From: a virus
Length of the DNA: 24,217 bases
IMG/VR virus record: IMGVR_UViG_3300042556_000593
Span: 1-24,217 of that record
Direction: 5' to 3' (one strand)
Part shown: positions 2,837 to 20,293 of the stretch, one piece after another
Layout of the letters: each line of letters starts with the position of its first letter
Numbering within the stretch: the first letter of the stretch is position 1
Made by a program: the position numbers and the translations under genes
Notes under the pieces: model-generated
The model's input: the letters and a program-made list of their open reading frames with translations, nothing else
Databases searched by the model: none
Told to the model about the DNA's origin: nothing

Positions 2837-3796
2837 TTGGCTAACATAGTATTTCTTGGCAACTTTGAAGTGCCTTATAGTAGTGAGAATCATCATGCTA
2901 AGTCTCTAGAGTCTCTTGGACATACCGTTGAAAAATTGCAGGAGAAAAAAGCGGGCAGTTCAGAAATATTAATGAAAGCATTGAAATCTGACTTATTCAT
3001 CTGGGTGCATACCCATAGATGGCAAACTCCAGGATCTAGGTCAATGACAGATGTATTAAAAGAATTAAAGGCTGCTGGCATACCAACTATGACCTATCAT
3101 TTAGATTTGTGGTTTGGGATTGAACGTGAAAAAGATTTAAAGAATGATGACTTCTACACAAGTATTGGTCACTTCTTTGCTACAGATAAGTTAATGTGTG
3201 ATTGGTTTAATGAAAATACACAGGTAAAGGGGCACTTTCTGCCTGCTGGTGTGTATGATAAAGAGTGTTATCTACATCAAGATTACGATCCACATAATTT
3301 TGAGAATGATATTATATTTGTTGGCAGCAAAGGCTATCATCGTGAACATAAATACCGTCCAGAATTAATAGACTTTTTGAGAAACACATACGGCAAAAGA
3401 TTTTTACATGTTGGTGGAGACGGTGACACTGGAACTGTACGTGGAGATGCTTTAAACCGTATCTATGCAAGAAGCAAGATAGCAATAGGTGATAGTTTAA
3501 ACATTAATTTTAACTACCCTTACTACACTAGTGATAGGTTGTTTGAGAGTACTGGTCGTGGTGGTTTTACCATTTACCCTCGCATTAAAGGGCTTGAAGA
3601 ATACTTTAAAGATGAAAATGAAATTATATTTTATGAACACGGCAACCTTGAAGATCTAAAAAATAAAATAGATAAGTACTTGTTAGACGGTGTATCAAGA
3701 GAAACAATCAGACTTAACGGACATGAAAGAACAAAGAAAGAGCACACATATGTTCATAGATGGGCTAGCATTTTAGAAACCTTAAATATAAAATGA
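2837..3796 (+). CDS. GT-B type glycosyltransferase (CgeB-like)
   Basis: A 319-residue protein that starts with a Rossmann strand (ANIVFLGNFEVPYSSENHH) and has a second half carrying DIIFVGSKGYHREHKYR, then YARSKIAIGDSLN and DRLFESTGRGGFTIYPRIKGLEEYF. The last block is the nucleotide-sugar site typical of the CgeB/GT4-like C-terminal domain (R-x-x-E-x-x-x-x-G-x-F, then a surface Glu/Phe block). The donor and acceptor cannot be read from the sequence. The start is TTG at 2837, preferred because GAGGGG lies 5 nt upstream. It opens the + strand cassette and overlaps the epimerase gene by 4 nt (ATGA). Confidence 0.85.
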   Translation: MANIVFLGNFEVPYSSENHHAKSLESLGHTVEKLQEKKAGSSEILMKALKSDLFIWVHTHRWQTPGSRSMTDVLKELKAAGIPTMTYHLDLWFGIEREKDLKNDDFYTSIGHFFATDKLMCDWFNENTQVKGHFLPAGVYDKECYLHQDYDPHNFENDIIFVGSKGYHREHKYRPELIDFLRNTYGKRFLHVGGDGDTGTVRGDALNRIYARSKIAIGDSLNINFNYPYYTSDRLFESTGRGGFTIYPRIKGLEEYFKDENEIIFYEHGNLEDLKNKIDKYLLDGVSRETIRLNGHERTKKEHTYVHRWASILETLNIK

Positions 3797-4677
3797 AATA
3801 TTTAGTTACAGGTGGTGCTGGTTTTATTGGATCAAACCTTGTTGATAAGTTAGTTAGTCTTGGTCACGATGTTGTTTGTATTGATGATGAGTCTGCAGAA
3901 TGTCATGAACAATTTTATTGGAACGATAAAGCACACAACTATAAGTATGATATTTGCGACTATGATTTAATTGCACCACTCTTTAAAGATGTTGACTGCG
4001 TGTTTCACGTAGCATCTGATGCAAGAATACAGCCAGCAATATTAAATCCTAAAAAATCTATTCAATCAAACGCAGTAGGAACAGCAAATGTTCTTGAACT
4101 TTGTAGGGTTAATAAGGTAGATAGGCTAATTTATTCAAGCACATCTTCTTCTTATGGTAAAAAGGCTTTGCTTCCAAACCAAGAAACCCAATCGCCCGAT
4201 CCTTTAACTCCATACTCCGCTGCTAAAGTTTTTGGTGAAAACCTTGCAAGAGTTTATTATAATCTTTACGGATTAAAGACTATATCCCTTAGATATTTTA
4301 ATGTTTATGGAGATAGACAACCATTAAAAGGTCAATACGCACCAGTAATAGGACTATTTTTAAAACAATACCATGAGTCAAAACCATTGACAGTAGTTGG
4401 AGATGGATCTCAGCGTAGAGATTTTACTCATATATTAGACGTAGTAGAAGCAAATATCCTTGCATCTGAAGTTAAAGATGGATTTGGTGAAGTATATAAC
4501 ATTGGGTATGGAAGTAACTACGCTATACTTGATATTGCTAATATGATCTCAAATGATATTAAATTTATCCCGCCAAGAATTGGTGAAGTGCAAGAAACTC
4601 TTGCGTCTAATGCCAAGTTTAAAGATTTAACTGGATGGATGCCAAAAGTATCATTAATAGAATGGTTACAGAAATGA
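3793..4677 (+). CDS. NAD-dependent sugar epimerase/dehydratase (extended SDR, GalE-like)
   Basis: A 294-residue extended short-chain dehydrogenase. GGAGFIG (residues 7-13) binds NAD and DD at 31-32 ends the second strand. The catalytic set is Ser/Thr in YSSTSSSYG (about 114-122), Tyr141 and Lys145 in YSAAK. RYFNVYG and GDGSQRRDFTHILDV are the substrate-binding blocks of UDP-sugar 4-epimerases and NDP-sugar dehydratases. It would make or interconvert the nucleotide sugar used by the neighbouring transferases. The length is a little under the usual 310-340. The start ATGA overlaps the previous stop and its end overlaps the next start (ATGA at 4674). Which of epimerase or dehydratase it is cannot be settled here. 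Confidence 0.9.
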   Translation: MKYLVTGGAGFIGSNLVDKLVSLGHDVVCIDDESAECHEQFYWNDKAHNYKYDICDYDLIAPLFKDVDCVFHVASDARIQPAILNPKKSIQSNAVGTANVLELCRVNKVDRLIYSSTSSSYGKKALLPNQETQSPDPLTPYSAAKVFGENLARVYYNLYGLKTISLRYFNVYGDRQPLKGQYAPVIGLFLKQYHESKPLTVVGDGSQRRDFTHILDVVEANILASEVKDGFGEVYNIGYGSNYAILDIANMISNDIKFIPPRIGEVQETLASNAKFKDLTGWMPKVSLIEWLQK

Positions 4678-5534
4678 AATATGTAGCACTAGTGCCCTAT
4701 ACAGTTCAGTCAATAATGGATGAGTTTATGGCAACATGTAAACTTGAAAATGTTCTAAAGGTTGATAACACTATAAATAATATTGGAGCAATGGCAAGTC
4801 ACAATCTTGGCGTTGACAAAATGTATGAAACTGAATCTGAATGGCTTATTATCATTAGTCCAGCAATTCGTTTTGGCAATCCTGGTGGTTTAGATTTTAT
4901 AGAAAAACTTAAAAGTACTAAATATAAAATTGTAGAAAGTCTGGGGGTGTTTGGATGGCACCTAATTGCTTTTCATAAAGATGTAATAGATAAAGTTGGA
5001 AAATGGGATACTAACTTTACTCCATATGGATATGACGATCTTGATTTTAGCATTAGAATTCAAAAAGCATTTCCATATGCATTTTCAGATGATGAAAAAT
5101 TTGTTGTTAATGCTGAGAAAGTTTTTCTTTGGACAAAAGAATTGGTTGATGTAAAAGATACAATAATGTCTCACAGCCTGAAGTTAAACAAAATTAATAC
5201 AGATAATTCACATCATAGAGAATACTATGAAAGAAAATGGGGCAAAGTTCCTGGAACAGGAGAACATCTCCTTAACACATATGAACACCCATTTAATAAT
5301 CCAGAAAATGATATAACATATTTTTCTAATGACTATTACAATGAGTGGATAGAAAAAGAATCAATAAAAGATGATTTAAATTTTAAAGAAACATCAATTA
5401 TTTGCACAACATGTGGTAATACTTTTAAATATAAATCAACATACGCTGAGGGTAGTGTTGATAATAAAATAGAAATAAATACATGTGGGGTATGTAATCC
5501 AGAAATTATAGAGCATAATAAAATAAGGGGATAA
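4674..5534 (+). CDS. Glycosyltransferase-like protein with C-terminal bL31-like zinc ribbon
   Basis: The start chosen is ATG 4674 in an ATGA overlap with the epimerase stop. An in-frame ATG at 4635 lies inside that gene and is less likely. The protein has 286 residues. The N-terminal 200 look like a GT-A/GT2-type transferase: YVALVPYT at the start, SEWLIIISPAIRFGNPG in place of the DxD block, LIAFHKDVIDKVGKWD and YGYDDLDFSIRI (acceptor-side ED/DD motif). Residues 244-276 then carry CTTCGNTF, ST, IEINTC and CGVCNP, with Cys244, 247, 271 and 274. This follows the order of zinc-type ribosomal protein bL31 (CxCGNxF, ST, I-x-V-x-x-C, C-HP). The tail may bind Zn and a partner. The fusion is in frame with no stop. 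Confidence 0.7.
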   Translation: MKYVALVPYTVQSIMDEFMATCKLENVLKVDNTINNIGAMASHNLGVDKMYETESEWLIIISPAIRFGNPGGLDFIEKLKSTKYKIVESLGVFGWHLIAFHKDVIDKVGKWDTNFTPYGYDDLDFSIRIQKAFPYAFSDDEKFVVNAEKVFLWTKELVDVKDTIMSHSLKLNKINTDNSHHREYYERKWGKVPGTGEHLLNTYEHPFNNPENDITYFSNDYYNEWIEKESIKDDLNFKETSIICTTCGNTFKYKSTYAEGSVDNKIEINTCGVCNPEIIEHNKIRG

Positions 5535-5535
5535 A

Positions 5536-6249
5536 ATGACAGAGATGGTTAAAGCCATTATTAACGGTGAATTTGAAATAACACTACCAAAGCATCGTGC
5601 AGATAGACCAGACTGGTATAAACCACACGGTTGGGAAAAACCAAGGCTAAAGCATATGTCAGAAAATATTTCATCTGGAGATGTTGTATATTATGTTGGT
5701 GCAGAAGAAGGAGAGATGCCTGCCCTATGTCAGATGTGGGGATCAGAAGTTGTTTTATTTGAACCTAATCCAAAGGTTTGGTCACACTTTCCTTTGCTTT
5801 GGAGTGCTAATAATTTAGAAATGCCTCTTGTTTGCATTCCTGGATTTGCTTCAGACAAAAACAATAACCTTACACGTATTTATTATAATGAGTTTCCACC
5901 AGAATCAAATTTAGAAATTGAAGCAGCACATGGATTTAAAGAACTATACCTTGAAGGAGATACCTATGGTCAAATTACCATAGATTCCTGTGTATATGAT
6001 CATGGGATTAAGCCTCCTACGGCAATTTCTTTAGACGTAGAAGGCAGCGAAGGACGTGTTTTAAGGGGCGCAGAAGGCGTTTTAAAGGAGTTTAAGCCTA
6101 AGATCTGGTTATCTGGTCATCCAGAATTTATGATGCAACAATGGAATGAATACTTATATGATTTAAGATTTTGGTTGTGGGGGCTTGGATATAAAGAAAC
6201 ATTGCTTGACTATCAACATGAAGTACACTTATATTATGAACGATATTAA
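5536..6249 (+). CDS. FkbM-family SAM-dependent methyltransferase
   Basis: A 237-residue protein with the FkbM layout: SAM motif I VVYYVGAEEGEM (residues 50-61), an acidic strand end VVLFEPNP (72-79), and the family signature ISLDVEGSEG with RVLRGAEGVL at about 164-183. FkbM enzymes put methyl groups on hydroxyls, and relatives commonly act on sugars in surface-glycan clusters. The start ATG 5536 follows AGGGG (5526-5530). A second ATG at 5545 is possible. It sits 1 nt after the previous stop and overlaps the next gene by 14 nt, consistent with one operon. The substrate is probably a sugar made by this cassette, by inference from context. Confidence 0.88.
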   Translation: MTEMVKAIINGEFEITLPKHRADRPDWYKPHGWEKPRLKHMSENISSGDVVYYVGAEEGEMPALCQMWGSEVVLFEPNPKVWSHFPLLWSANNLEMPLVCIPGFASDKNNNLTRIYYNEFPPESNLEIEAAHGFKELYLEGDTYGQITIDSCVYDHGIKPPTAISLDVEGSEGRVLRGAEGVLKEFKPKIWLSGHPEFMMQQWNEYLYDLRFWLWGLGYKETLLDYQHEVHLYYERY

Positions 6250-7090
6250 AGCATATCTTTATTCAGTTAAACAAGAAGATTGTGCTGCTGATAAATGGGA
6301 TTACGGTTTATTAAAACAATTTTTTAATAAAAACAAGATTAAACCAGACAGAGTAACAACTTTGCCCAATGTAGATAGAGCATTTGTGGTAGTTCCTGGA
6401 CCACAAAACGTAGACTATGAAGATCAAATATCCAAAGAGTTAAATAAGATAGGTAGAGTAGTTTTATTCATTACTGGAGATGAAAGTGCTACATTTAAAG
6501 TTGATAAGATAAAACATAAAAATATTGAAATTTGGATTCAATACCCGCACAAAAAACATTCACAATATAATAAGTTAGCCTTGGGTGTTCCACAACACTT
6601 ATCAAATAATTTACCAAAGTATCAAGATAAATCATATGATGTATTTTTTTCAGGGCAGATAACGCATGCAAGAAGGCAGGAACTTGCAACTGTTATGCCT
6701 AACATACCAAACTCTTTTTATAATCCAACAACGGGCTTTGCAGAAGGGTTAAAACCAAAACAGTATTACCAAAAAATGTTTTTATCAAAAATTGTTCCTT
6801 GCCCTAGCGGAGCAATAGTTATTGATTCATTTAGGTTTTACGAAGCAATTGAAATGCTTTGCCTACCCATTGGAGATAAATTAGACTCAAAAATGCAGAA
6901 TACAGATTTTTTTAATTTTTTATTTGAAGATAATCATTTAATAAAAACTGTTGAGAATTGGCAACACTTGCCTCAATTGCTACCTGAATTATTAAATAAT
7001 TATACATCTGAAATTCATCAAATAGTTTGTTGGTGGATTAAGTATAAAAGAAATTTATTTATTAAGTTAATGAGGCAAGTAAATGCATAA
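6236..7090 (+). CDS. Exostosin-like glycosyltransferase
   Basis: A 284-residue protein. The start chosen is ATG 6236, which overlaps the FkbM gene by 14 nt. Alternatives at 6185 and 6218 lie deeper inside it. Residues 134-150 (YDVFFSGQITHARRQEL) and 177-212 (YYQKM...SKIVPCPSGA, then SFRFYEAIEMLCLPI) match the core of the exostosin/GT47 domain: a start strand, then K-x-x-x-x-P-x-G...S-x-R-x-x-EA. It would be a GT-B sugar transferase. Donor and product are unknown. It overlaps the next gene by 8 nt. Confidence 0.75.
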   Translation: MNDIKAYLYSVKQEDCAADKWDYGLLKQFFNKNKIKPDRVTTLPNVDRAFVVVPGPQNVDYEDQISKELNKIGRVVLFITGDESATFKVDKIKHKNIEIWIQYPHKKHSQYNKLALGVPQHLSNNLPKYQDKSYDVFFSGQITHARRQELATVMPNIPNSFYNPTTGFAEGLKPKQYYQKMFLSKIVPCPSGAIVIDSFRFYEAIEMLCLPIGDKLDSKMQNTDFFNFLFEDNHLIKTVENWQHLPQLLPELLNNYTSEIHQIVCWWIKYKRNLFIKLMRQVNA

Positions 7091-7844
7091 AAGAGATATA
7101 ACAATTGTTATGGCTACATCTGTAATTCCAAATCATCCAAGTACAACAATGATAGAACAAACTATTAGTGATATTCGTGTTCACTTTCCAGACAACGAAA
7201 TTATTATGCAAATAGATGGTCTTAGAGAAGAACAACAAAACCGTAAAAAAGATTACGATGAATATAAAAATCGTATTTTGTGGAAGTGTTTACATGAAGA
7301 TAAAAACATTTTACCTTTTATATTTAAAGAACATAGCCATCAAACTAACATGATGCGTCAAACAATTACTGAAGTTAAAACACCTCTATTACTTTATGTT
7401 GAAGGTGATGCTCCTTTAACTCCAGATGTACCAATAGACTGGGATAAGTGCTTGGACATGTTTGAATACAATAAAGCAAACACTATTCGTTTTCATTATG
7501 AATCATTTATACCAAAAGATCACGAGCACCTTATGTTTGGCTTAGAGGATGGATTTATGAAAACTATGCAGTGGAGTCAACGACCACACCTAAGTAGAAA
7601 AAAATATTACAAAGATATTGTTCTTCCAAGATGTAATGATAAATTTTTTATAGAAGATACATTTCATGGTGCAATTCAAGATGACATATCTCCGTATGAA
7701 TTATTTAGTCAAGAAGGCTGGGACATACACAAACTTTGGATATATCATCCTGAAGGTAGTATTAAGCGTTCTTATCATTTAGATGGTCGTCAGGGTACCC
7801 GCAAATTTACGGTAGATGATGAAACTTGGGGGTATAAAGAATGA
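7083..7844 (+). CDS. GT-A-like glycosyltransferase
   Basis: A 253-residue protein that begins with a typical GT-A strand (DITIVMATSVIPNHPS), a helix ISDIRVHFPDNEIIMQIDG, and then LLLYVEGDAPLTPD at about residues 103-116. The EGD there takes the place of the DxD nucleotide-sugar/metal motif. The second half has DTFHGAIQDD and a His-rich end (WIYHPEGSIKRSYHLDG). The full GT2 motif set is not seen, so the family call is moderate. It overlaps both neighbours (8 and 4 nt), which fits coupled translation within the cassette. Confidence 0.65.
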   Translation: MHKRDITIVMATSVIPNHPSTTMIEQTISDIRVHFPDNEIIMQIDGLREEQQNRKKDYDEYKNRILWKCLHEDKNILPFIFKEHSHQTNMMRQTITEVKTPLLLYVEGDAPLTPDVPIDWDKCLDMFEYNKANTIRFHYESFIPKDHEHLMFGLEDGFMKTMQWSQRPHLSRKKYYKDIVLPRCNDKFFIEDTFHGAIQDDISPYELFSQEGWDIHKLWIYHPEGSIKRSYHLDGRQGTRKFTVDDETWGYKE

Positions 7845-8878
7845 GACTAGGGATTATAGCAAGATGTGATAACACTGGTCTTGGCAATCAAACAAAAGAG
7901 TTAGTAAAAATGTTAAATCCTCATAAGATTTTACTTATTGACTCATATTCTTTTAATAACAATAAACAATACCCGCAGTGGTATGACGGACATAATGTAA
8001 TAAAAACAATAAAGGGTATGCCTAGAACAAAAGAAATTCTTGATTTTTTAGATAATGTCGATGTTGTTATTAGTTGTGAAACATTTTACCATTTAGACTT
8101 TGTGGATATAGCAAGAAAAAGAAATATAAAAACAATATTGCAATATAACTATGAACTATTTGGAAATTTAGTTCATCCAGAGTGGCCTTTACCAGATGTA
8201 CTATTATCACCAAGCAGTTGGAATATAGATGTTGTTAAAGAAAAATTTGGATTAAAATGCAAGGTATATCATCTACCACCACCAACAGATACATCATTAT
8301 TTAATACTGCAAGAGAAAATAACCTATCAAAAACCCATAAACGAATACTCCATATTGCTGGTAAAAAAGCAGCCAAAGATAGAAATGGAACTAATACCGT
8401 AGTAGAAATGCTTAAACATTCTAGTGCAGATTATGAACTTGTAATAGCAACACAAACCCCCCTAGACTTTATAACTAAGGATAGCCGTTTAAAAATAAAC
8501 AAAGACAATGTTAGAAATAGAGAAGACTTATACAACGGCTATGATGCTATGGTTCTTCCTAGACGTTATGCTGGTCTTTGTTTACCTATGAATGAGGCTT
8601 TAATTTCTGGTCTACCCGTTTTTATGACAGACATATCACCTAATAATCAAATACTTCCACACAACTGGTTAGTAGGTTCAAATAAAATTGGTGAGTTTAA
8701 AACTAAATCAATGGTAGATATATATGAGGCTGACGCAACAAAATTAGGTAAAACAATAGATAACTATATTAATAGTAATAGTATAAATAAAGATAAAAAT
8801 ACTGCGGTAGAACTTGGTTTTAATAATTTTTCTGTTGAGGTATTAAAAGACAAATGGTTAAATATTATAAATGAATAA
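7841..8878 (+). CDS. GT4-like (GT-B) glycosyltransferase
   Basis: A 345-residue protein. The N-terminal GNQTKELVKML follows a first strand (LGIIARCDNTGLG). The second domain starts with RILHIAGKKAAKDRNG (about 168-183), and the sugar-nucleotide site is DAMVLPRRYAGLCLPMNEAL-ISGLPV (about 235-260), equivalent to the GT4 block with a conserved Glu and Gly. It is the last gene of the cassette, overlaps its upstream neighbour by 4 nt, and is followed by the hairpin at 8886-8909. Substrates are unknown. Confidence 0.82.
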   Translation: MRLGIIARCDNTGLGNQTKELVKMLNPHKILLIDSYSFNNNKQYPQWYDGHNVIKTIKGMPRTKEILDFLDNVDVVISCETFYHLDFVDIARKRNIKTILQYNYELFGNLVHPEWPLPDVLLSPSSWNIDVVKEKFGLKCKVYHLPPPTDTSLFNTARENNLSKTHKRILHIAGKKAAKDRNGTNTVVEMLKHSSADYELVIATQTPLDFITKDSRLKINKDNVRNREDLYNGYDAMVLPRRYAGLCLPMNEALISGLPVFMTDISPNNQILPHNWLVGSNKIGEFKTKSMVDIYEADATKLGKTIDNYINSNSINKDKNTAVELGFNNFSVEVLKDKWLNIINE

Positions 8879-8926: not shown

Positions 8927-9223
8927 CTACTTTACAGCAAAACGACCTCCGCCGCTTCCACTCTTTTTTGCAGTTTTCTTTGTTGGTGCTTTTGTAGACT
9001 TAAGAGCCTTAGCAACTTCAGCAGCATCAGGCAAGATGCCAAATGCCTTATCTGCAGGATTTAGCGCTCTTAACGCAACGGGCGCTATAGCAGCAACTAA
9101 TGCAGCCCATAGATCTTTTGGATCTGTTACGCCAGCCATGTAAAGAGCAATTACTGCACCAAGAACAGATCGTCCATATGATGCTAGCATTGCCTTAGTC
9201 TTATCATTGATTAGGTTATTCAT
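8927..9223 (-). CDS. Holin-like small membrane protein
   Basis: A 98-residue protein. Residues 13-52 carry two hydrophobic stretches (GRSVLGAVIALYMAGV and WAALVAAIAPVALRALN) joined by TDPKD, followed by NPADKAFG, then a Lys/Ser/Gly-rich basic tail. The two-helix start with ALRxLNPxDxAFG resembles holin-like proteins of actinobacteriophages. However, the CHAP lysin is 13 kb away, so a lysis role is uncertain. The start is firm: AGGAGG at 9229-9234 is 5 nt from the ATG, behind a perfect promoter. A strong single-gene transcript ending at the nearby hairpin is likely. Confidence 0.7.
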   Translation of the reverse strand: MNNLINDKTKAMLASYGRSVLGAVIALYMAGVTDPKDLWAALVAAIAPVALRALNPADKAFGILPDAAEVAKALKSTKAPTKKTAKKSGSGGGRFAVK

Positions 9224-9299: not shown

Positions 9300-10064
9300 T
9301 TAAAAGTTGTCATCAAAATCTTTTTCTTTGTATTTTTTAATAAATTTTATAAGAAATTCTTTTTCTTCAATATTTTCTGAACGAAGCAAAATATTTTTTA
9401 TATTTTTTTCTTTTAATAAATTTAATAAATTTTCAAATTCAACATGTGTGAAAAAAAACATATCTTGGTTTTTTTGTTTTTTATTCAACAAGTCTAATTC
9501 TTTTTGTGTTTTTCTTATTATTGGATTAATATATATAGTAGTATTATGGTTGTTTATGCTAAACTTATTTTGTATGTAAACAGAGTACGGAACAATGATT
9601 TTATTATTATATTTATTTGCTATATTATAAACGTGTTCATTAGTAACAGAAACATAAAAATTTAAACTATCTGCATTCATATTATTTAAAACTTTTAAAT
9701 ATTCTATTAAATAATTGTTTTTTTCTATATTAGAAGACAGATCGTTTACTGAACCTAATACTCCACCAAAAACTTTTTCAGTTTCGTAAGACCATCCAGA
9801 GACAAGATTAATTTCTAATTGATTAGGAACTATTTCATTTAATGAACGATTAATCATATATAAATATTGTGGAGAAATAGAATAAGGTCTAATTGCTACC
9901 ATATATTTTAAATTATAATTTAAATTGGCATATTTAGCAATTTTAGTAAAAAAATCACCACTATGAAGTCCATACGCAAAAAGCACACCATGAAAATGAT
10001 GATCTGATAATTCTTGTAATTTATCTACAATTTCATTATGTATGCTAAACCAATAAAAATTCAT
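9300..10064 (-). CDS. Short luciferase-like monooxygenase (SsuD-type) homologue B
   Basis: A 254-residue protein. After HGVLFAYGLHSGDFFTKIAKYA comes YMVAIRPYSISPQYLYMIN and then LEINLVSGWSYE with a nearby GG. This order matches the flavin-dependent bacterial-luciferase-like (LLM/alkanesulfonate monooxygenase) family: DPW-like helix, VAVRPG-SPxxxAxM, GRLxxNxVTG. Usual members have about 330-390 residues, so this copy is short and the C-terminal half is divergent and rich in Asn/Lys/Phe. Flavin binding is plausible but unproven, and luminescence is not implied. It lies 5 nt from its paralogue at 10070-10927. AGGGG precedes the ATG with very little spacing. Confidence 0.7.
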   Translation of the reverse strand: MNFYWFSIHNEIVDKLQELSDHHFHGVLFAYGLHSGDFFTKIAKYANLNYNLKYMVAIRPYSISPQYLYMINRSLNEIVPNQLEINLVSGWSYETEKVFGGVLGSVNDLSSNIEKNNYLIEYLKVLNNMNADSLNFYVSVTNEHVYNIANKYNNKIIVPYSVYIQNKFSINNHNTTIYINPIIRKTQKELDLLNKKQKNQDMFFFTHVEFENLLNLLKEKNIKNILLRSENIEEKEFLIKFIKKYKEKDFDDNF

Positions 10065-10069
10065 GTCCC

Positions 10070-10927
10070 CTATTTTTCTGATTCATAATATTTATTAATA
10101 TAATATCTAATTGCTTCAAATTCTCTAAATGGATAAGCATTTAAAAGCAACTGAGTTATACCTTTTTCTTTAGCACTTTTTATAAAAGAAACAAATTCAT
10201 CGTAGGTAAAAAACTCAATATCTGATACTGGATTTGATGTTTCTCCTTCACGCCAAATTGGACGATATGCGTAATCTTCTGGTAATTTTTCTAATGCCGA
10301 AATATCTTTTCTAATAACAGGGGTTACTGCTAACATAACTTTATTATAATTTAAATCTAATGGTTTTTTTACAATTTTTTTTCCAGTCCATTTATCAATT
10401 TCTTCCCAATATTGAGATTTATACACTTTGTAAGGCAAAATTATTTTACTATCATATCTATTTGCTGCTTTTTCTACAGTAGGGTTAGTTGTTGATATAT
10501 AAAAATCTAATGGATTCTTTTTATTTCCTTCCATTTTATTTAAAATATCTATATATTTAATAAGATGATTAGATCTATCAATGTTGTTTGGTGGAGCCGT
10601 AGACTCAATAGATTCTTCAAAAAGTCCTCCAAAACCTTCTTCATGACTTTTTAGATATCCAGAAATAAAATTTATTTGCAATCTATTGCCATTTAATATT
10701 TGAGTCATACTATTATTAATCATACAAAGATATTGTGGGGAAATTGCATACGGCCTTATTGCAATTAAATATTTTGTTTTTTGATCTGGATTTGCTTGTT
10801 GTGCTAATTTTGTAAATATATCTCCTTGAGTTACATCATATGTAAACATAAGACCTGTAAATTTAGATTTATCTATTTCGTCTAAAAATCCTGGCACAAA
10901 ATTTCCACCGAAATAATAAAATTCCAT
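10070..10927 (-). CDS. Short luciferase-like monooxygenase (SsuD-type) homologue A
   Basis: A 285-residue paralogue of the gene at 9300-10064. Shared landmarks are the TxGDIFTKLAQQA helix, YLIAIRPYAISPQYLCMIN (18 of 19 positions similar) and LQINFISGYLKSHEEGFGG. These are the conserved N-terminal core of SsuD-like flavin monooxygenases (TIM barrel, FMNH2-dependent, acting on sulfonates or related compounds). It has an extra segment near residues 180-235 (KWTGKK..., REGETSNP) missing from the other copy. It overlaps the upstream membrane-protein gene by TAATG at 10927. A reductase supplying FMNH2 is not seen in the window, so the host would have to provide it. Confidence 0.72.
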   Translation of the reverse strand: MEFYYFGGNFVPGFLDEIDKSKFTGLMFTYDVTQGDIFTKLAQQANPDQKTKYLIAIRPYAISPQYLCMINNSMTQILNGNRLQINFISGYLKSHEEGFGGLFEESIESTAPPNNIDRSNHLIKYIDILNKMEGNKKNPLDFYISTTNPTVEKAANRYDSKIILPYKVYKSQYWEEIDKWTGKKIVKKPLDLNYNKVMLAVTPVIRKDISALEKLPEDYAYRPIWREGETSNPVSDIEFFTYDEFVSFIKSAKEKGITQLLLNAYPFREFEAIRYYINKYYESEK

Positions 10928-11355
10928 TATGTGTTTTTTATTTCTGACTCATCTGGTAAAAATTTTTTTAAATCTTTATATGCAGTAGTTATTTTTTTCA
11001 TACCATCATTTAAAGGATTTCCTTCTTGTAAAGAATTAAACTCATCAAAATAATTAATAGTTGGATCTACCTCTTCAACAAATTTAACTAAACCCTTTTG
11101 AACATCTTCGATATATGTAAAAGCCCAGTCACGAGAATCTGATAAGAACTTAATAAAATTTTCTCTATGTATGTCATTATCAGTTAATTCTTGATTTGTT
11201 TTAACTGATTCAGCCTGCTGATTAAGTTTAAAATTTTCTAAAAATAATTGAGCGGAAGTCAAACTAAGACTTCTTAATTTATATGAAACTGTTAAATATG
11301 ATATAGCAAAAGAAACTGACAAAACTATAAAAAATATCAATAAACCAGTTTTCAC
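10927..11355 (-). CDS. Membrane-anchored hypothetical protein, 142 aa
   Basis: Residues 4-24 (GLLIFFIVLSVSFAISYLTV) are one membrane helix, and the rest is a charged, probably helical domain. The stretch from RDWAFTYIEDVQKG to DPTINYFDEF is a recurring block I associate with aquatic phage proteins of unknown function. The N-in orientation is suggested by the Lys at position 2. It overlaps the glycosylase gene by ATGA and the downstream monooxygenase-like gene by TAATG, so it is co-transcribed with both. Confidence 0.7.
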   Translation of the reverse strand: MKTGLLIFFIVLSVSFAISYLTVSYKLRSLSLTSAQLFLENFKLNQQAESVKTNQELTDNDIHRENFIKFLSDSRDWAFTYIEDVQKGLVKFVEEVDPTINYFDEFNSLQEGNPLNDGMKKITTAYKDLKKFLPDESEIKNT

Positions 11356-11840
11356 GATACTACTCTCCCCTCAATATGAGTTGCCCAATAATATAAACAT
11401 TTATCACAACAAGGTCTATTATACTCGTTCTTAGTCTCCATGTAAAACTCAGCATAGTAGATAGGGTCCTTACGATATAAGTTAGCCCTATGAGTGATAT
11501 TTACACGGTTTATGTGAGAAGGCTTGTTCCAGACTGGCTTACCAGTACCCCAAATCTGCCCACAAACAGCCTCTAGAGCCTCTATATTGGCTTCGTTCTT
11601 ATCTGTCCTTATACCTCTTGCTTTGGCTTCTTTAATCATAACCTTAGCATAGTTACGTAATGACCATTCAGCATTTTTCCACATCAATACCGCTGGATGA
11701 TTGCGCCATGCCCCTGATGGGGACTTTCCAGACAAAACCTTAAGTATCTGATAGGTTTCTAATATCTGTTTATTTAATCTTTTATTATCTAATATTTCTG
11801 CACACTGATCATAATCTTTATAAGGTAGAAAGGTTTGCAT
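11352..11840 (-). CDS. Pyrimidine-dimer DNA glycosylase family (MSMEG_6728-like)
   Basis: A 162-residue protein. The start MQTFLPYKDYDQCAEILDNKRLNKQ, followed by LETYQILKVL, GAWRNHPAVLMWK and a C-terminal HRANLYRKDP, matches the MSMEG_6728-like family, related in fold to T4 DenV (endonuclease V). Such enzymes excise UV-induced pyrimidine dimers. The N-terminal polar residues and the KRLxKQ/RNHP blocks are the conserved part. A Cys pair (CCDKC) near the end is an extra feature. It couples to its upstream neighbour by TAATG. DNA repair in sunlit water fits an aquatic host. Activity is by family likeness only. Confidence 0.82.
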   Translation of the reverse strand: MQTFLPYKDYDQCAEILDNKRLNKQILETYQILKVLSGKSPSGAWRNHPAVLMWKNAEWSLRNYAKVMIKEAKARGIRTDKNEANIEALEAVCGQIWGTGKPVWNKPSHINRVNITHRANLYRKDPIYYAEFYMETKNEYNRPCCDKCLYYWATHIEGRVVS

Positions 11841-12070
11841 TATTTAATGGCCTCTCTAGTAATCATAACTATTGCCCCATTGTCTTCTAAAGCCTTCTTT
11901 ACTCTTACCATATATTCTATCGCCTGTCGCTTCTCTGTGTCAAATAGGCGCATAAACATAGCCTCATTGGCCTTAACTGTAATAAAGTGTTCGTTGTCTA
12001 TAATATCTACCTTGAAATTTTTAGGAGATGGTATTGAATGAAAAGCCATTTTCATTTTATCTGTATACAT
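11840..12070 (-). CDS. Hypothetical protein, 77 aa, coupled to WhiB
   Basis: The start chosen is ATG 12070, which shares the TAATG with the stop of the WhiB-like gene. A TTG at 12097 is in frame but lies inside that gene. The product (MYTDKMKMAFHSIPSPKNF...) has an FKVDIIDNEHFITVKANE beta-like section and a helical C-terminal half with DTEKRQAIEYMVRVKKALEDNG. No family is recognised. The tight junction suggests that it is made with WhiB. Confidence 0.6.
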   Translation of the reverse strand: MYTDKMKMAFHSIPSPKNFKVDIIDNEHFITVKANEAMFMRLFDTEKRQAIEYMVRVKKALEDNGAIVMITREAIK

Positions 12071-12354
12071 TATTGTTCCATTGTTAGGGATTGCCAAGTA
12101 ATTGACCAGTCTTGTTTGGTTTTATGATTGTTAAATTCTCTTGAAACTTCTCCGCCTTCTAAATAAACACCACCCCAAACTCCCCATTCTTTACCAGATA
12201 TACCAACAGCAAAACATGTTTTGGCTACTGGACACATCTGACACATAGAGTCAACAACTCCACGGCTAGAAGGATTGTCTTCATACTTATCAAAATATAT
12301 GTTAGTGTCAAGACCTAAACATATTGCATCGTCTTTCCATAAATGCTGTTTCAT
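12070..12354 (-). CDS. WhiB-like Fe-S transcriptional regulator
   Basis: A 94-residue protein with Cys12, Cys38, Cys41 and Cys47 (C-x25-C-x2-C-x5-C), which hold a 4Fe-4S cluster, and the family's GVWGGVYL turn at residues 58-65. The first Cys follows WxDDAxC, as usual. Wbl proteins are restricted to Actinobacteria and their phages and act with sigmaA or SigA-bound RNA polymerase, sometimes as redox switches. The basic residues after GVWGG (HKTKQ) may touch DNA. The gene overlaps the next one by TAATG and starts 2 nt after the previous stop, so it is in the middle of an operon. In phages, WhiB can interfere with host regulation. Confidence 0.93.
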   Translation of the reverse strand: MKQHLWKDDAICLGLDTNIYFDKYEDNPSSRGVVDSMCQMCPVAKTCFAVGISGKEWGVWGGVYLEGGEVSREFNNHKTKQDWSITWQSLTMEQ

Positions 12355-12575: not shown

Positions 12576-12926
12576 CTAGTATTTAAATATACCAATTTCT
12601 ATATTTTTTAGTTGTGCGTCTGAAACTAACTTAGATATTTTTTCATTTGGCTTACTTAAAAATGCAAAATAATTTATTTGATCTAAATTTTCTTTCATCC
12701 AAAGCGGAGCAACCTTATAAAATTTTATTTTTTTCCCTCTTGCTTTCATTCCTTTTTCTGATACATTAGAGAATTCTGAAACAAAAGAGTTTACTTTTGC
12801 GGGACCAGCAGAATAAATAATAAACTCATTATCTTCCTGATTCATATTTGACATGGCAACACCCATGGAGCGAATAAAAACTCCATAGTCATTGAACTCA
12901 TTGGTTCCCTGAACTGCCACGATCAT
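12576..12926 (-). CDS. Possible SLOG/YspA-like Rossmann protein
   Basis: The start chosen is ATG 12926 (MIVAVQGTNEF). ATG 12938 is an alternative but lacks a properly spaced site. The 116-residue protein begins with a hydrophobic strand and GTNEFNDY, then has a helix, EFIIYSAGPAKVNSFVSEF, RGKKIKFYKV, NYFAFLSKPN and a last helix and strand (SDAQLKNIEIGIF). This alternation resembles the SLOG (YspA/DprA-like) nucleotide-binding fold: start strand with DxxxY, GGAxG-like turn (here SAGPA), then AFLS. The glycine turn is weaker than in classic members, so the call is tentative. It overlaps the upstream gene by about 29 nt. Confidence 0.45.
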   Translation of the reverse strand: MIVAVQGTNEFNDYGVFIRSMGVAMSNMNQEDNEFIIYSAGPAKVNSFVSEFSNVSEKGMKARGKKIKFYKVAPLWMKENLDQINYFAFLSKPNEKISKLVSDAQLKNIEIGIFKY

Positions 12927-13314
12927 TTCTTTTCCCATCCCTTAAACTATCTAGTATAAATAGCATCTTATCTAAATCTACCTTTGACAAACTATCTATG
13001 TCTACTGGCTTTGTAGTGCTTTTTTGTACCTCACCATTAACAGCCTCTGCAACATAAAATTTATTGTTAGATACCCAGTAAGCCTGATTACCTAGAACAA
13101 TAACCTTAATCATACCTTTTTGTCTATGCTTTGTCAACTGCGTAGAGTTATCACTATTTGCTAAAGAAATTGAAAAAAAATGTTTTAACAATCTATGTAT
13201 ATCGCTTTGGCGAGACAAAGTCATTAAGTTTTTCTTTTTTTCAGTTTTCTTTGTTCTATTAATTATAAACCAAATAGCCCCTAATGTCAAGAATCCTGCT
13301 ATTAATTCTTGCAT
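12898..13314 (-). CDS. Membrane-anchored hypothetical protein, 138 aa
   Basis: An N-terminal helix (IAGFLTLGAIWFII, residues 5-18) is followed by a strongly basic stretch (NRTKKTEKKK), as expected for an anchor with the body in the cytoplasm. The rest is not recognised. It has VIVLGNQAYWVSNNKFYVAEA, a beta-rich segment, then an acidic helix ending in a Lys/Arg tail. No good ribosome site is visible before ATG 13314, so the start is less sure. ATG at 13224 is an alternative. Confidence 0.5.
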   Translation of the reverse strand: MQELIAGFLTLGAIWFIINRTKKTEKKKNLMTLSRQSDIHRLLKHFFSISLANSDNSTQLTKHRQKGMIKVIVLGNQAYWVSNNKFYVAEAVNGEVQKSTTKPVDIDSLSKVDLDKMLFILDSLRDGKRNDRGSSGNQ

Positions 13315-16553: not shown

Positions 16554-16563
16554 TCATTTACTG

Positions 16564-16635
16564 AGCCTCTTGTAGGATTTCAACCTATGACAACCGACTT
16601 ACAAGGCGGGTACTCTACCCCTAAGTTAAAGAGGC
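16564..16635 (-). tRNA. tRNA-Thr (anticodon TGT)
   Basis: On the minus strand, acceptor GCCTCTT pairs fully with AAGAGGC. Anticodon loop CTTGTAA holds TGT, and the T stem is ATAGG/CCTAC. Flaws are a C-C mismatch in the anticodon stem, an A-C at the end of the T stem, and a T loop of TTGAAAT instead of TTC... CCA is not encoded (discriminator T then CAG). It reads ACA (and other ACN by wobble). The features fit a divergent but folding phage tRNA. Confidence 0.8.
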
Positions 16636-16658: not shown

Positions 16659-17099
16659 TTAATTTTTATTAATAATATCTGCAATTTGATAAGAACTAGG
16701 ATAATGTTTAATAGATCCATCGATAGATATTAAAAATTTTTCAAAGTTCCACGCTATATCTTTACCCCCAATGGCCTTATCCTTACAATACTTATAAATT
16801 GGATGAGCATCTGGACCATTAACATAAATTTTTTCAGCAATAGAAAATGTTACACCAAAATTGCTTGCACAAAAATTTTTTATTTCTTCGTTTGTTCCTG
16901 GCTCTTGATTTCCAAATTGATTACACGGAAAACCAATAACTACTAAAGAATCACTTTGTGCTTTTTGCAAATCGGCATATTGAGATGTATATCCACAATG
17001 GCTTGCGGTATTGACAATAAGTATATTTTTACCTTCAAATTGTTTTAATTTTATAATATTTTTATTATTGTCAGTAAATGATAAATCATGTATACTCAT
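16659..17099 (-). CDS. Glutathione-peroxidase-family (thioredoxin-dependent type)
   Basis: A 146-residue protein. NTASHCGYTSQY places the peroxidatic Cys at 35, GFPCNQFGNQEPG supplies Gln61, and IAWNFEKFLI supplies Trp117 and Asn118, so the Cys-Gln-Trp-Asn tetrad is complete. Cys77 in NEEIKNFC is where the resolving Cys of thioredoxin-dependent peroxidases lies. It would reduce hydroperoxides in the cytoplasm. The length is near the bacterial norm (about 160) but slightly short at both ends. AAGGGA precedes the ATG. The next gene upstream is a divergent paralogue. Confidence 0.93.
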   Translation of the reverse strand: MSIHDLSFTDNNKNIIKLKQFEGKNILIVNTASHCGYTSQYADLQKAQSDSLVVIGFPCNQFGNQEPGTNEEIKNFCASNFGVTFSIAEKIYVNGPDAHPIYKYCKDKAIGGKDIAWNFEKFLISIDGSIKHYPSSYQIADIINKN

Positions 17100-17122: not shown

Positions 17123-17926
17123 TTAAACAGCAATTAATCCATATTCACTATCATATGATGGATTAATAATTGACTTTTCTCCAGACATTAGTCTTTCAAT
17201 ATGATCACGAATGACAGAATTTTCTTCATTAAAAATATATTCGGACCTATCAGAACCCATTTTTGCTGGAATTCCTTGTGCTGCAAGATCTTCTTTAAGA
17301 GTACGCTCTACATCCCAGTTTAATGTTGTAGCGGGATAGTGCTTAACTACATAGCCATCTTTGTCAATTAAAAATTTTTCAAAGTTAGCATTCATTTTGT
17401 ATCCGCCATTGTGTTCGTTTAAATATCGTGACTCATAATCTGTTTTTTCAATAATTCCAAGTTCTATTTTTTTATTACTAATTCTCATAATTTGTTTTGC
17501 AACTTCTAAATAAAGTTCATGTCTTTCTCCAAAGGGTTGGCCATTACCATTAAGTCCTGGACCTTTACCAAGCCATGGCGCTTCTAAAGGAATGTCTGCT
17601 GGGTTTGATGTAATCATTTCTGAAAATGGAAATGTTACACCGTAAACATCTTCTCCATACAACTTTGAATCAAGACCGCATGTAATACCCTTTGACCATT
17701 TCCCTTTTGTTATACTTGGTCCACAAAAATCATTAGTAGGAATTGCTACAACAGTAAAGTCTTCTCCAGCCATATCTTCTTGAATCCACTGAATAGACTC
17801 CATCTGACCAGCGTTACCACAACCAACTGTTGTATTAATAAGTAAAACTACTTTACCTTTAAATTGTTTTAAAAAATTTGGCTGTCCTTCTGCAGAGTTT
17901 AACTCAATATCGTATATAGGTTTCAT
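17123..17926 (-). CDS. Divergent glutathione-peroxidase paralogue with insertion
   Basis: A 267-residue protein with the same core: NTTVGCGNAGQME with Cys36, AIPTNDFCGP in place of FPCNQFGNQEP, and NANFEKFLIDKDG in place of WNFEKF. The tetrad Gln and Trp are therefore replaced by Asp and Ala, with Asn kept. About 75 extra residues are inserted in the middle (from ITCGLDSKLYGEDV to the RYLNEHNGG region) and about 65 at the C-terminus. It may be a non-peroxidase redox protein or act on a different substrate. TATAAT is 6 nt before the ATG, with no ribosome site (leaderless layout). Confidence 0.78.
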   Translation of the reverse strand: MKPIYDIELNSAEGQPNFLKQFKGKVVLLINTTVGCGNAGQMESIQWIQEDMAGEDFTVVAIPTNDFCGPSITKGKWSKGITCGLDSKLYGEDVYGVTFPFSEMITSNPADIPLEAPWLGKGPGLNGNGQPFGERHELYLEVAKQIMRISNKKIELGIIEKTDYESRYLNEHNGGYKMNANFEKFLIDKDGYVVKHYPATTLNWDVERTLKEDLAAQGIPAKMGSDRSEYIFNEENSVIRDHIERLMSGEKSIINPSYDSEYGLIAV

Positions 17927-18642: not shown

Positions 18643-18675
18643 TCATAATTTTTTATGCAGTATTAATAAAATTAG

Positions 18676-18747
18676 TACCCCCAAGGGGAATTGAACCCCT
18701 GTTACCACCGTGAAAGGGTGGTGTCATAACCACTAGACCATGAGGGC
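18676..18747 (-). tRNA. tRNA-Glu (anticodon TTC)
   Basis: Minus strand: GCCCTCA pairs with TGGGGGT (G-T at each wobble position). The anticodon arm CCACC/GGTGG is perfect with loop CTTTCAC (TTC), and the T arm AGGGG-TTCAATT-CCCCT is standard. The discriminator is A and CCA is not encoded. It reads GAA and GAG. Confidence 0.92.
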
Positions 18748-18751
18748 ATAG

Positions 18752-18822
18752 AGCGGATAGCGGGAATCGGACCCGCACATTAACCTTGGCAAGGTTACGC
18801 ACTACCACTATGCAATATCCGC
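18752..18822 (-). tRNA. tRNA-Gly (anticodon GCC)
   Basis: Minus strand: acceptor GCGGATA/TATCCGC is perfect, the anticodon arm TAACC/GGTTA has loop TTGCCAA, and the T arm is GCGGG-TCCGATT-CCCGC. CCA is not encoded. It lies 4 nt from tRNA-Glu, so the two are one transcript. Confidence 0.93.
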
Positions 18823-18832
18823 AATTATATAA

Positions 18833-20293
18833 TTAATTATTTTTAATAATTTTAATTTTGTCATAATTTAAATTATCAATTACTTCTATTGTTACTCCTT
18901 CAACAGTTACCTTTTGCTCCCTATATAAAATTGGATTTGGATATCCAACAACTAAGCAATCAGAACTATATTCTATGCCTCTTTCTACAGGTACAATCGG
19001 TTTTAAAAAATTTTCTCCATGGCTTAAAGTTGCATCGTATGTATAAACTAAAATACCATTTCGTTTAGACGGCATTTGACAAGAAAATTTATTTTCACGC
19101 CTTGACTCAATTACAACCGCTTTTGTTTCAGATATTGGGATTACTACCATTTTTATTCCTTTATCTGAACTATTTAATGGAATTAAAGTTATATCCGTAC
19201 TTTTTAATTTATTAAATTCTTGGCAATAAACTCTTTCATCACTTAGCCAACCTGCAACAAAACGCATCCAACCACTAAGTTCTCTGGACTCTCCGTCTTG
19301 ATTACCCATAATATCTAAACCAAGAAATGGATTAGGCTCACGAGAAGATCCAACATGAGGTAAAGCCATTGCATGACCAAATTCATGCATCCAGTAAGAC
19401 CAATATCTTTTTTTATCAGAATCCATAAATTTTCCTGGAATTGAAAAAGAAGACACAGACCCTTCGTTTGTTACTAAGTTTTTTACTGCTGCATCCCAAG
19501 GAAAACCTTGTGAAGTTTCAGTGATAAAGTTTTGCCCTTTGGGCAGTACAAAATTGACAGTTTGCACACCCGTAAAATCAAAAATTTTATCACTCTGTGT
19601 CATTGCATCATTCCAAAGTTTTAGACCGTTAGGCACTCGGTCTAAATTATCAGATCGATCAATCTTATAATCATTACTTGGATTGGGAAGTCTTACCCAG
19701 TTATCTGCTACAACCCACTCAACCTTAAATTTGCCTTCACTAACCGTTTCAAACCACTCAGATAAATATTTCATATCATCATCTACCCTTGATTTAAAAT
19801 TATCTTCTCCTGCTAGATCTGGAAAATCTATCGGTATCAGGGCCCATTTAACTGTTCCTATTTTTTGAGCAATAGTAACACTTGGAAAACCTGCAGCCAA
19901 TGGATTTAGCATGCCACGGCGATTATTATTATTTTCTTTAATTTTACAAGTCTCAATATTTACACCTGGCTGAGTCGGAGTTGAATACGTCATCAATCCC
20001 GTACTCTGACCATTACTTATATCATTTTTAGAAAATTGATTTTTAGTAATTGGCAAATCTTTTTTTATTGTCCATCTGTAAACTTTGCCATTCTTTAGAC
20101 AAATAGTATTTTTTTTAACTTTATTTAATTCTGATTTAGAGCATAATTTATTTGTAAATTTGTACTCTGATTTTTTTGTCGAGTAAAACTCTTGAACATA
20201 ACTTTCCTTGACTACTGTATTTATATGAACAGGCTGTTGTGCTGGAGCCAGTAGAGTTGCGACAGTTGCAGTAGATACACAAATAATACACAT
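18833..20293 (-). CDS. Secreted zinc metalloprotease (M6/metzincin-like)
   Basis: A 486-residue protein. Residues 1-20 (ICVSTATVATLLAPAQQ) look like a signal peptide, though without the usual positive start. HEFGHAMALPH at 303-313 is the zinc site HExxHxxxxxH, with a likely Met-turn in LDIMGNQ at 326-331. The upstream block TVKWALIPIDFPDLAGED is like the start of M6-type catalytic domains. Residues 49-75 (CSK...KNGKVYRW) form a small module common in actinobacterial exported proteins. The exact family is not fixed. It could be released to break down host or neighbour proteins, or be part of the particle. AGGGGG is 5 nt before the ATG. Confidence 0.85.
   Translation of the reverse strand: MCIICVSTATVATLLAPAQQPVHINTVVKESYVQEFYSTKKSEYKFTNKLCSKSELNKVKKNTICLKNGKVYRWTIKKDLPITKNQFSKNDISNGQSTGLMTYSTPTQPGVNIETCKIKENNNNRRGMLNPLAAGFPSVTIAQKIGTVKWALIPIDFPDLAGEDNFKSRVDDDMKYLSEWFETVSEGKFKVEWVVADNWVRLPNPSNDYKIDRSDNLDRVPNGLKLWNDAMTQSDKIFDFTGVQTVNFVLPKGQNFITETSQGFPWDAAVKNLVTNEGSVSSFSIPGKFMDSDKKRYWSYWMHEFGHAMALPHVGSSREPNPFLGLDIMGNQDGESRELSGWMRFVAGWLSDERVYCQEFNKLKSTDITLIPLNSSDKGIKMVVIPISETKAVVIESRRENKFSCQMPSKRNGILVYTYDATLSHGENFLKPIVPVERGIEYSSDCLVVGYPNPILYREQKVTVEGVTIEVIDNLNYDKIKIIKNN

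Follow-up and report, generated by a model that had tools for sequence, protein, structure and literature searches.

The window analyzed here is a stretch of 24,217 nucleotides from the viral record IMGVR_UViG_3300042556_000593. Its minus strand carries two adjacent genes whose products are predicted to have the fold of the luciferase-like monooxygenases (LLM; the luciferase/sulfonate-oxygenase fold of flavin enzymes). P0002 (10070..10927, 285 aa), the longer of the two, is read first, and the shorter P0001 (9300..10064, 254 aa) follows after a gap of 5 nt. P0002 starts on the last base of the gene before it, c1 (10927..11355, minus strand), a one-base overlap. The genes c1, P0002 and P0001 form one tightly packed unit, which is followed by c2 (8927..9223, minus strand), the gene of a conserved small protein of 98 aa. 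The product of c1 has 142 aa and an N-terminal hydrophobic segment. P0001 and P0002 are 34% identical over their full length and have in common the core KYxxAIRPYxISPQYLxMIN...INxxSG. ORF coordinates and identity thus bear out the initial annotation, which had described two phage-encoded paralogues of 254 and 285 residues, 5 nt apart, with a long common core. Both proteins are also, as stated there, shortened relative to enzymes of about 330-380 aa, and the extra segment ascribed to one copy was located in P0002, mainly at residues ~172-190 and ~216-236.

The same block contains a gene for a WhiB-like regulator (12070..12354, minus strand; phrog_12112, E 2.4e-12). This gene suggests an actinobacterial host, and the virus probably infects actinobacteria. 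A gene for a pyrimidine dimer DNA glycosylase (Pyr_excise, E 1.4e-19) lies just upstream of c1, at 11352-11840, and is variably present in relatives.

Family identity and predicted fold

Searched as a single sequence, P0001 scores 12.6 bits with the Pfam model PF00296 (Bac_luciferase), for which the gathering cut-off is 27.9, and P0002 gives no match. Across the family, 23 of 31 non-redundant relatives match this model at E <= 0.1 (best 2.4e-8). The SsuD model TIGR03565 is matched by all 31 (best E 2.2e-15), and by P0001 (24.6 bits, E 1.1e-5) and P0002 (18.9 bits, E 6e-4) themselves, neither of which reaches its curated cut-off of 518 bits. A family profile compared with solved structures matched MsuD (E 4.8e-10) and SsuD (E 4.5e-7). 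The Pfam cut-off is a detection threshold and does not define the fold; the fold evidence outweighs the low score.

AlphaFold (AF2) models were built on 59-sequence alignments and reached a pLDDT of 90.3 and a pTM of 0.89 for P0002, and 91.9 and 0.90 for P0001. With Foldseek, the best match of the P0002 model was MsuD 7k64 (E 5.9e-10; VIA Z 18.9) and that of the P0001 model MsuD 7jv3 (E 1.2e-9; VIA Z 19.6 to MsuD and 20.1 to KvPepI). The best structural matches of both models all belong to the LLM group, i.e., MsuD, SsuD, SfnG, KvPepI, RutA and luciferase. Z values of about 19-20 were obtained against SfnG, MsuD, SsuD and KvPepI; values less than one unit apart count as tied and do not decide which structure is nearest. 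Both proteins are thus modeled as (beta/alpha)8 barrels of the LLM fold. The initial annotation had assigned them to the LLM/SsuD type and had set a structure prediction with structural search, and an HMM search, as checks able to overturn that assignment; a TIM barrel was found, the HMM matches hold family-wide, and the assignment stands. Pairwise dN/dS values among family members range from 0.07 to 0.53, which indicates purifying selection; on these values, long and short types are both maintained as proteins. Because of these values, the 31 of 31 TIGR03565 matches and the LLM barrel in both models, the signal is far beyond chance. The pair consists of trimmed, diverged relatives of bacterial LLM flavin enzymes.

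The closest known systems by sequence are MsuD and SsuD, two-component FMNH2-dependent alkanesulfonate monooxygenases, which also share the barrel fold. The phage proteins keep the MsuD residues A75, R77, N104 and G108 and the motifs KYLVAIRP..SP and INxxxG, but are 254-285 instead of about 380 aa long. SfnG, a dimethylsulfone monooxygenase, shares the fold (Z 19.1 to P0002) and a weaker sequence match (TIGR04021), but is longer, and the scores of the phage proteins fall far short of the curated cut-off for its model. In a viral structure library two significant matches were found, both named 'Luciferase-like domain containing protein' and both from uncultured Caudovirales phages: A0A6J7WQ01 (251 aa, E 3.7e-16) and A0A6J7WN64 (249 aa, E 1.8e-13). 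They are similarly short, but only 16-23% identical to P0002 in structural alignment, and their domain name is automatic.

The F420-dependent oxidoreductase KvPepI resembles the phage proteins in fold and in its short length (solved chains of ~270 residues), but is only about 10% identical to them over the structural alignment. It ranks first, or level with the first, among the structural matches (for P0001 with a TM of 0.69), and is the closest in length. The phage proteins might accordingly be F420H2-dependent oxidoreductases that use F420 of the host; the WhiB-like gene points to actinobacteria, many of which make F420. Their sequence kinship, however, is to the FMN-dependent SsuD/RutA branch and not to F420 families, and the structural matches within one Z unit are tied. 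Dependence on F420H2, as far as the models speak to it, is therefore considered unlikely.

Active site residues

Residue roles were taken from the ternary structure of MsuD, in which the substitutions R225A, R296A and W195A each abolish activity (PMC8234197). The isoalloxazine/O2 pocket (A75, R77 and N104 in MsuD numbering) is invariant in all 59 aligned relatives, and G108 is kept in 58. The equivalents of A75 and R77 (O2 pocket/flavin) lie in A56-I57-R58 of P0002 (10754..10762, minus strand) and in A57-I58-R59 of P0001 (9888..9896, minus strand); the O2-pocket residue N104 corresponds to N86 in both proteins (10670..10672 in P0002 and 9807..9809 in P0001, minus strand). Of the six pocket positions that were mapped, three lie in invariant columns, of which the alignment has only seven (hypergeometric P about 2e-4). 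In nearly every long and short member Thr147 stands where MsuD has S177, and S178 corresponds to Asn148. Two FMN-phosphate ligands of MsuD, H123 and Y127, have no conserved counterpart where they align and are missing in all relatives; the proteins could thus bind their cofactor weakly or in an altered way, or bind F420.

The sulfonate-binding arginine R225 of MsuD is replaced by A, S, T, Y, H or F in 59 of 59 relatives, H227 of the same site is missing in all of them, and the IS-4 lid together with the RGGA loop that carries R296 is deleted throughout, as is the C-terminal extension of MsuD/SsuD in the phage proteins. The counterpart of W195 was placed by hand at Tyr166, at the end of strand 6; it is invariant in 54 of 54 long and short members and absent from a divergent third group of paralogues. 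In the C-terminal half the sequences are hard to align, which makes the mapping of R225 and W195 less certain; a global hhalign alignment of this half with SsuD was poor, and a MAFFT alignment of the 59 relatives with SsuD was used. On this alignment, the sulfonate site and the lid of MsuD/SsuD appear to have been lost across the family.

Long members carry a lid-like segment (Y..RP.W..GE...D) in the place of the lid. In P0002 it comprises residues 219-236 (10220..10273, minus strand), between barrel strands 7 and 8 according to DSSP of the model, and it is absent in P0001. It reads Y219-x-x-R-P-x-W-x-x-G-E-229, plus D236, and is well conserved among the 40 long members (W225 and P223 in 38, E229 in 37, D236 in 40). 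A kept cofactor pocket, a lost sulfonate site and a lid that is rebuilt or dropped fit a redox enzyme that takes a new small substrate and is fed reduced cofactor by the host.

The initial annotation had considered that the pair could release sulfite during infection; by the SsuD mechanism this was not upheld, as R225 and the R296/RGGA loop are absent in 59 of 59. With a rebuilt site, e.g., R222 of the long clade in the role of MsuD R296, the proteins could still be monooxygenases of alkanesulfonates or other organosulfur compounds that free sulfite for the phage. SsuD/MsuD is the closest sequence family, the expressed viral auxiliary genes reported elsewhere include ssuD (PMC9636769), and phages of the relatives encode APS kinase, DUF2061 and sulfotransferase, APS kinase being present in 15 of 21 LLM-positive versus 3 of 17 LLM-negative contigs (Fisher p 0.0013). 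A functional link between LLM and APS kinase in sulfur assimilation, however, found no support from phylogenetically independent pairs, of which there are only 3-5. The residues missing in all 59 include two whose substitution abolishes MsuD activity, and short members such as P0001 lack the R222 loop as well. Sulfite release by such a rebuilt site is thus quite improbable.

Viral ssuD genes have been counted as sulfur-cycle auxiliary genes (e.g., PMC9636769). Since an SsuD-like match in a phage can be devoid of the sulfonate-binding residues, such counts need a check of the active site. The family also offers many minimal LLM barrels (about 250 aa), and with them a view of how much the fold can be cut down without losing the flavin pocket.

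Distribution, slot and origin of the two copies

The family is widespread among viruses: in viral contigs, two scans confirmed 51 and 27 matching stretches, and a third, which used the alignment, at least 311 (redundant contigs included). When the genomes of 84,980 bacterial and archaeal species were scanned for the motif, 26 matches came up, none of them confirmed; diverged relatives can escape a scan of this kind. The named phage collection contained no match to P0002 and only two weak SsuD matches, in records of Acinetobacter phages (24% identity over 40%). As far as these searches reach, the family is restricted to viruses. No description of it was found in the part of the literature covered. 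A search of 19 contigs for the terminase family TerL PF03354 gave no match, a result that bears on that terminase family only.

In 45 representative LLM loci the recurring gene order is nuclease - thioredoxin - ... - WhiB - c3 - c1 - LLM - c2, with c1 directly upstream of the LLM slot in 43 loci and c2 as its downstream border in 38. Loci were also collected by a neighbor anchor, the gene at 12576-12938 of the window. Among the 62 evaluable loci, which include near-identical contigs, 52 have no LLM gene between c1 and c2, seven have one and three have two. In most loci without LLM genes c2 directly follows c1, and in several of the 52 the slot is filled by other cargo. With the LLM genes missing from 52 of 62 loci, a core phage gene is ruled out and the genes are accessory. 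As cargo, they occupy a fixed slot that two conserved phage genes flank, and they mark a defined site for cargo in a lineage of uncultured phages. Neither LLM protein was matched by PADLOC, which covers defence functions. One phage without LLM genes holds in this slot, by eye, an IMP dehydrogenase/GMP reductase-like protein of 336 aa (L198:3575-4585).

The initial annotation had suggested duplication in place, followed by divergence. In a quick tree of 63 viral members and SsuD, all long proteins fall into one clade (SH-aLRT 100) and the short proteins into several lineages outside it; long branches make the placing of P0001, L077 and SsuD unsure. The nearest relative of P0002 (84% identical) stands alone in the same slot of its locus. 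With P0002 in the long clade, P0001 in another deep lineage and this relative solitary, a recent local duplication is not borne out, and the two genes are best read from their sequences as two old lineages sharing one slot.

An additional LLM gene of greater divergence is present elsewhere in some contigs. A further LLM-fold gene (L234:4241-5050, minus strand, 269 aa) was seen ~13 kb away from the tandem pair of L134, on the same contig, near glycosyltransferase-like and methyltransferase-like genes.

Tandem copies are spaced by 5-7 nt or overlap by 1-4 nt in 50 of 51 pairs (redundant loci included). Recurrent tight pairing is reminiscent of bacterial luciferase, in which LuxA and LuxB are tandem paralogous subunits; LuxF is a shortened LLM barrel and, in Photobacterium, a non-catalytic binder of flavin or a flavin adduct. 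The models score Z 17-19 against luciferase (1luc), and LuxF is not among the structural matches listed, which excludes nothing. Either non-catalytic binders of the LuxF kind or a LuxA/LuxB-like heterodimer with one structural copy would agree with the shortened barrels, the recurrent pairs and the difference of ~30 residues between long and short members, part of which lies after strand 7. Long and short members, however, have identical invariant pocket residues, which also argues against the non-catalytic TIM-barrel proteins that the initial annotation had named as an alternative, and no luminescence gene context was seen. The 42 distinct complete loci comprise 22 with a long gene only, four with a short gene only, seven short-long, three long-short, five long-long and one short-short; pairs of one type and single copies of either type thus occur, which argues against a fixed partnership. 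An obligate heterodimer, with the paralogues always together, was rejected on the 26 of 42 loci that carry a single copy. Non-catalytic binders, or a heterodimer with one structural copy, are, all told, unlikely.

Proposed function

The reading preferred here, which we hold to be probable though well short of certain, is that the family consists of minimal, virus-restricted LLM-fold oxidoreductases, encoded in an accessory slot, that receive their reduced cofactor from the host and act on a small metabolite other than an alkanesulfonate. P0001 and P0002 would be accessory (auxiliary metabolic) genes of phages that probably infect actinobacteria. Inside the infected cell their products may bind reduced flavin, as FMNH2 from host reductases, or possibly F420H2, and would oxidize or reduce a small host metabolite. 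The long protein may close the site with its own RPxW..GE loop, and the short one may be a second enzyme or a partner subunit. A search of 17 phage contigs for genes of flavin reductases (PF03358, PF01613), the partners of MsuD/SsuD in their two-component systems, found none, with positive controls; these contigs may be fragments. The missing reductase is consistent with, and no proof of, a host enzyme serving the LLM proteins.

In a related phage (L146:538-5053) an operon was observed with the order divergent LLM - sulfotransferase - Asp/Asn beta-hydroxylase - APS kinase - DUF2061 - tryptophan halogenase. LLM enzymes and halogenases both usually need reduced flavin. A bolder proposal, which is unlikely as it stands, is that of an enzyme class born in viruses: a lid-less LLM family, evolved in actinobacteria-infecting phages, whose interchangeable long and short proteins would form homo- or heterodimers and carry out redox chemistry on a host metabolite that cellular LLM enzymes do not serve. 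This redox step perhaps belongs to the sulfation/halogenation chemistry encoded beside the third paralogue.

Further genes were noted in the window. A cluster on the opposite strand (2837-8878, plus strand) contains glycosyltransferase-like, NDP-sugar-epimerase-like and methyltransferase-like genes and is variable among related phages. Two adjacent genes of the glutathione peroxidase family encode 146 aa (16659-17099, E 5.9e-37) and 267 aa (17123-17926, E 7.6e-10), the second being unusually long. Three phage tRNAs, Thr(tgt), Glu(ttc) and Gly(gcc), are encoded at 16563-16635, 18675-18747 and 18751-18822. A protein of 486 aa (18833-20293) shows, by eye, a HEFGH zinc-metalloprotease-like motif.
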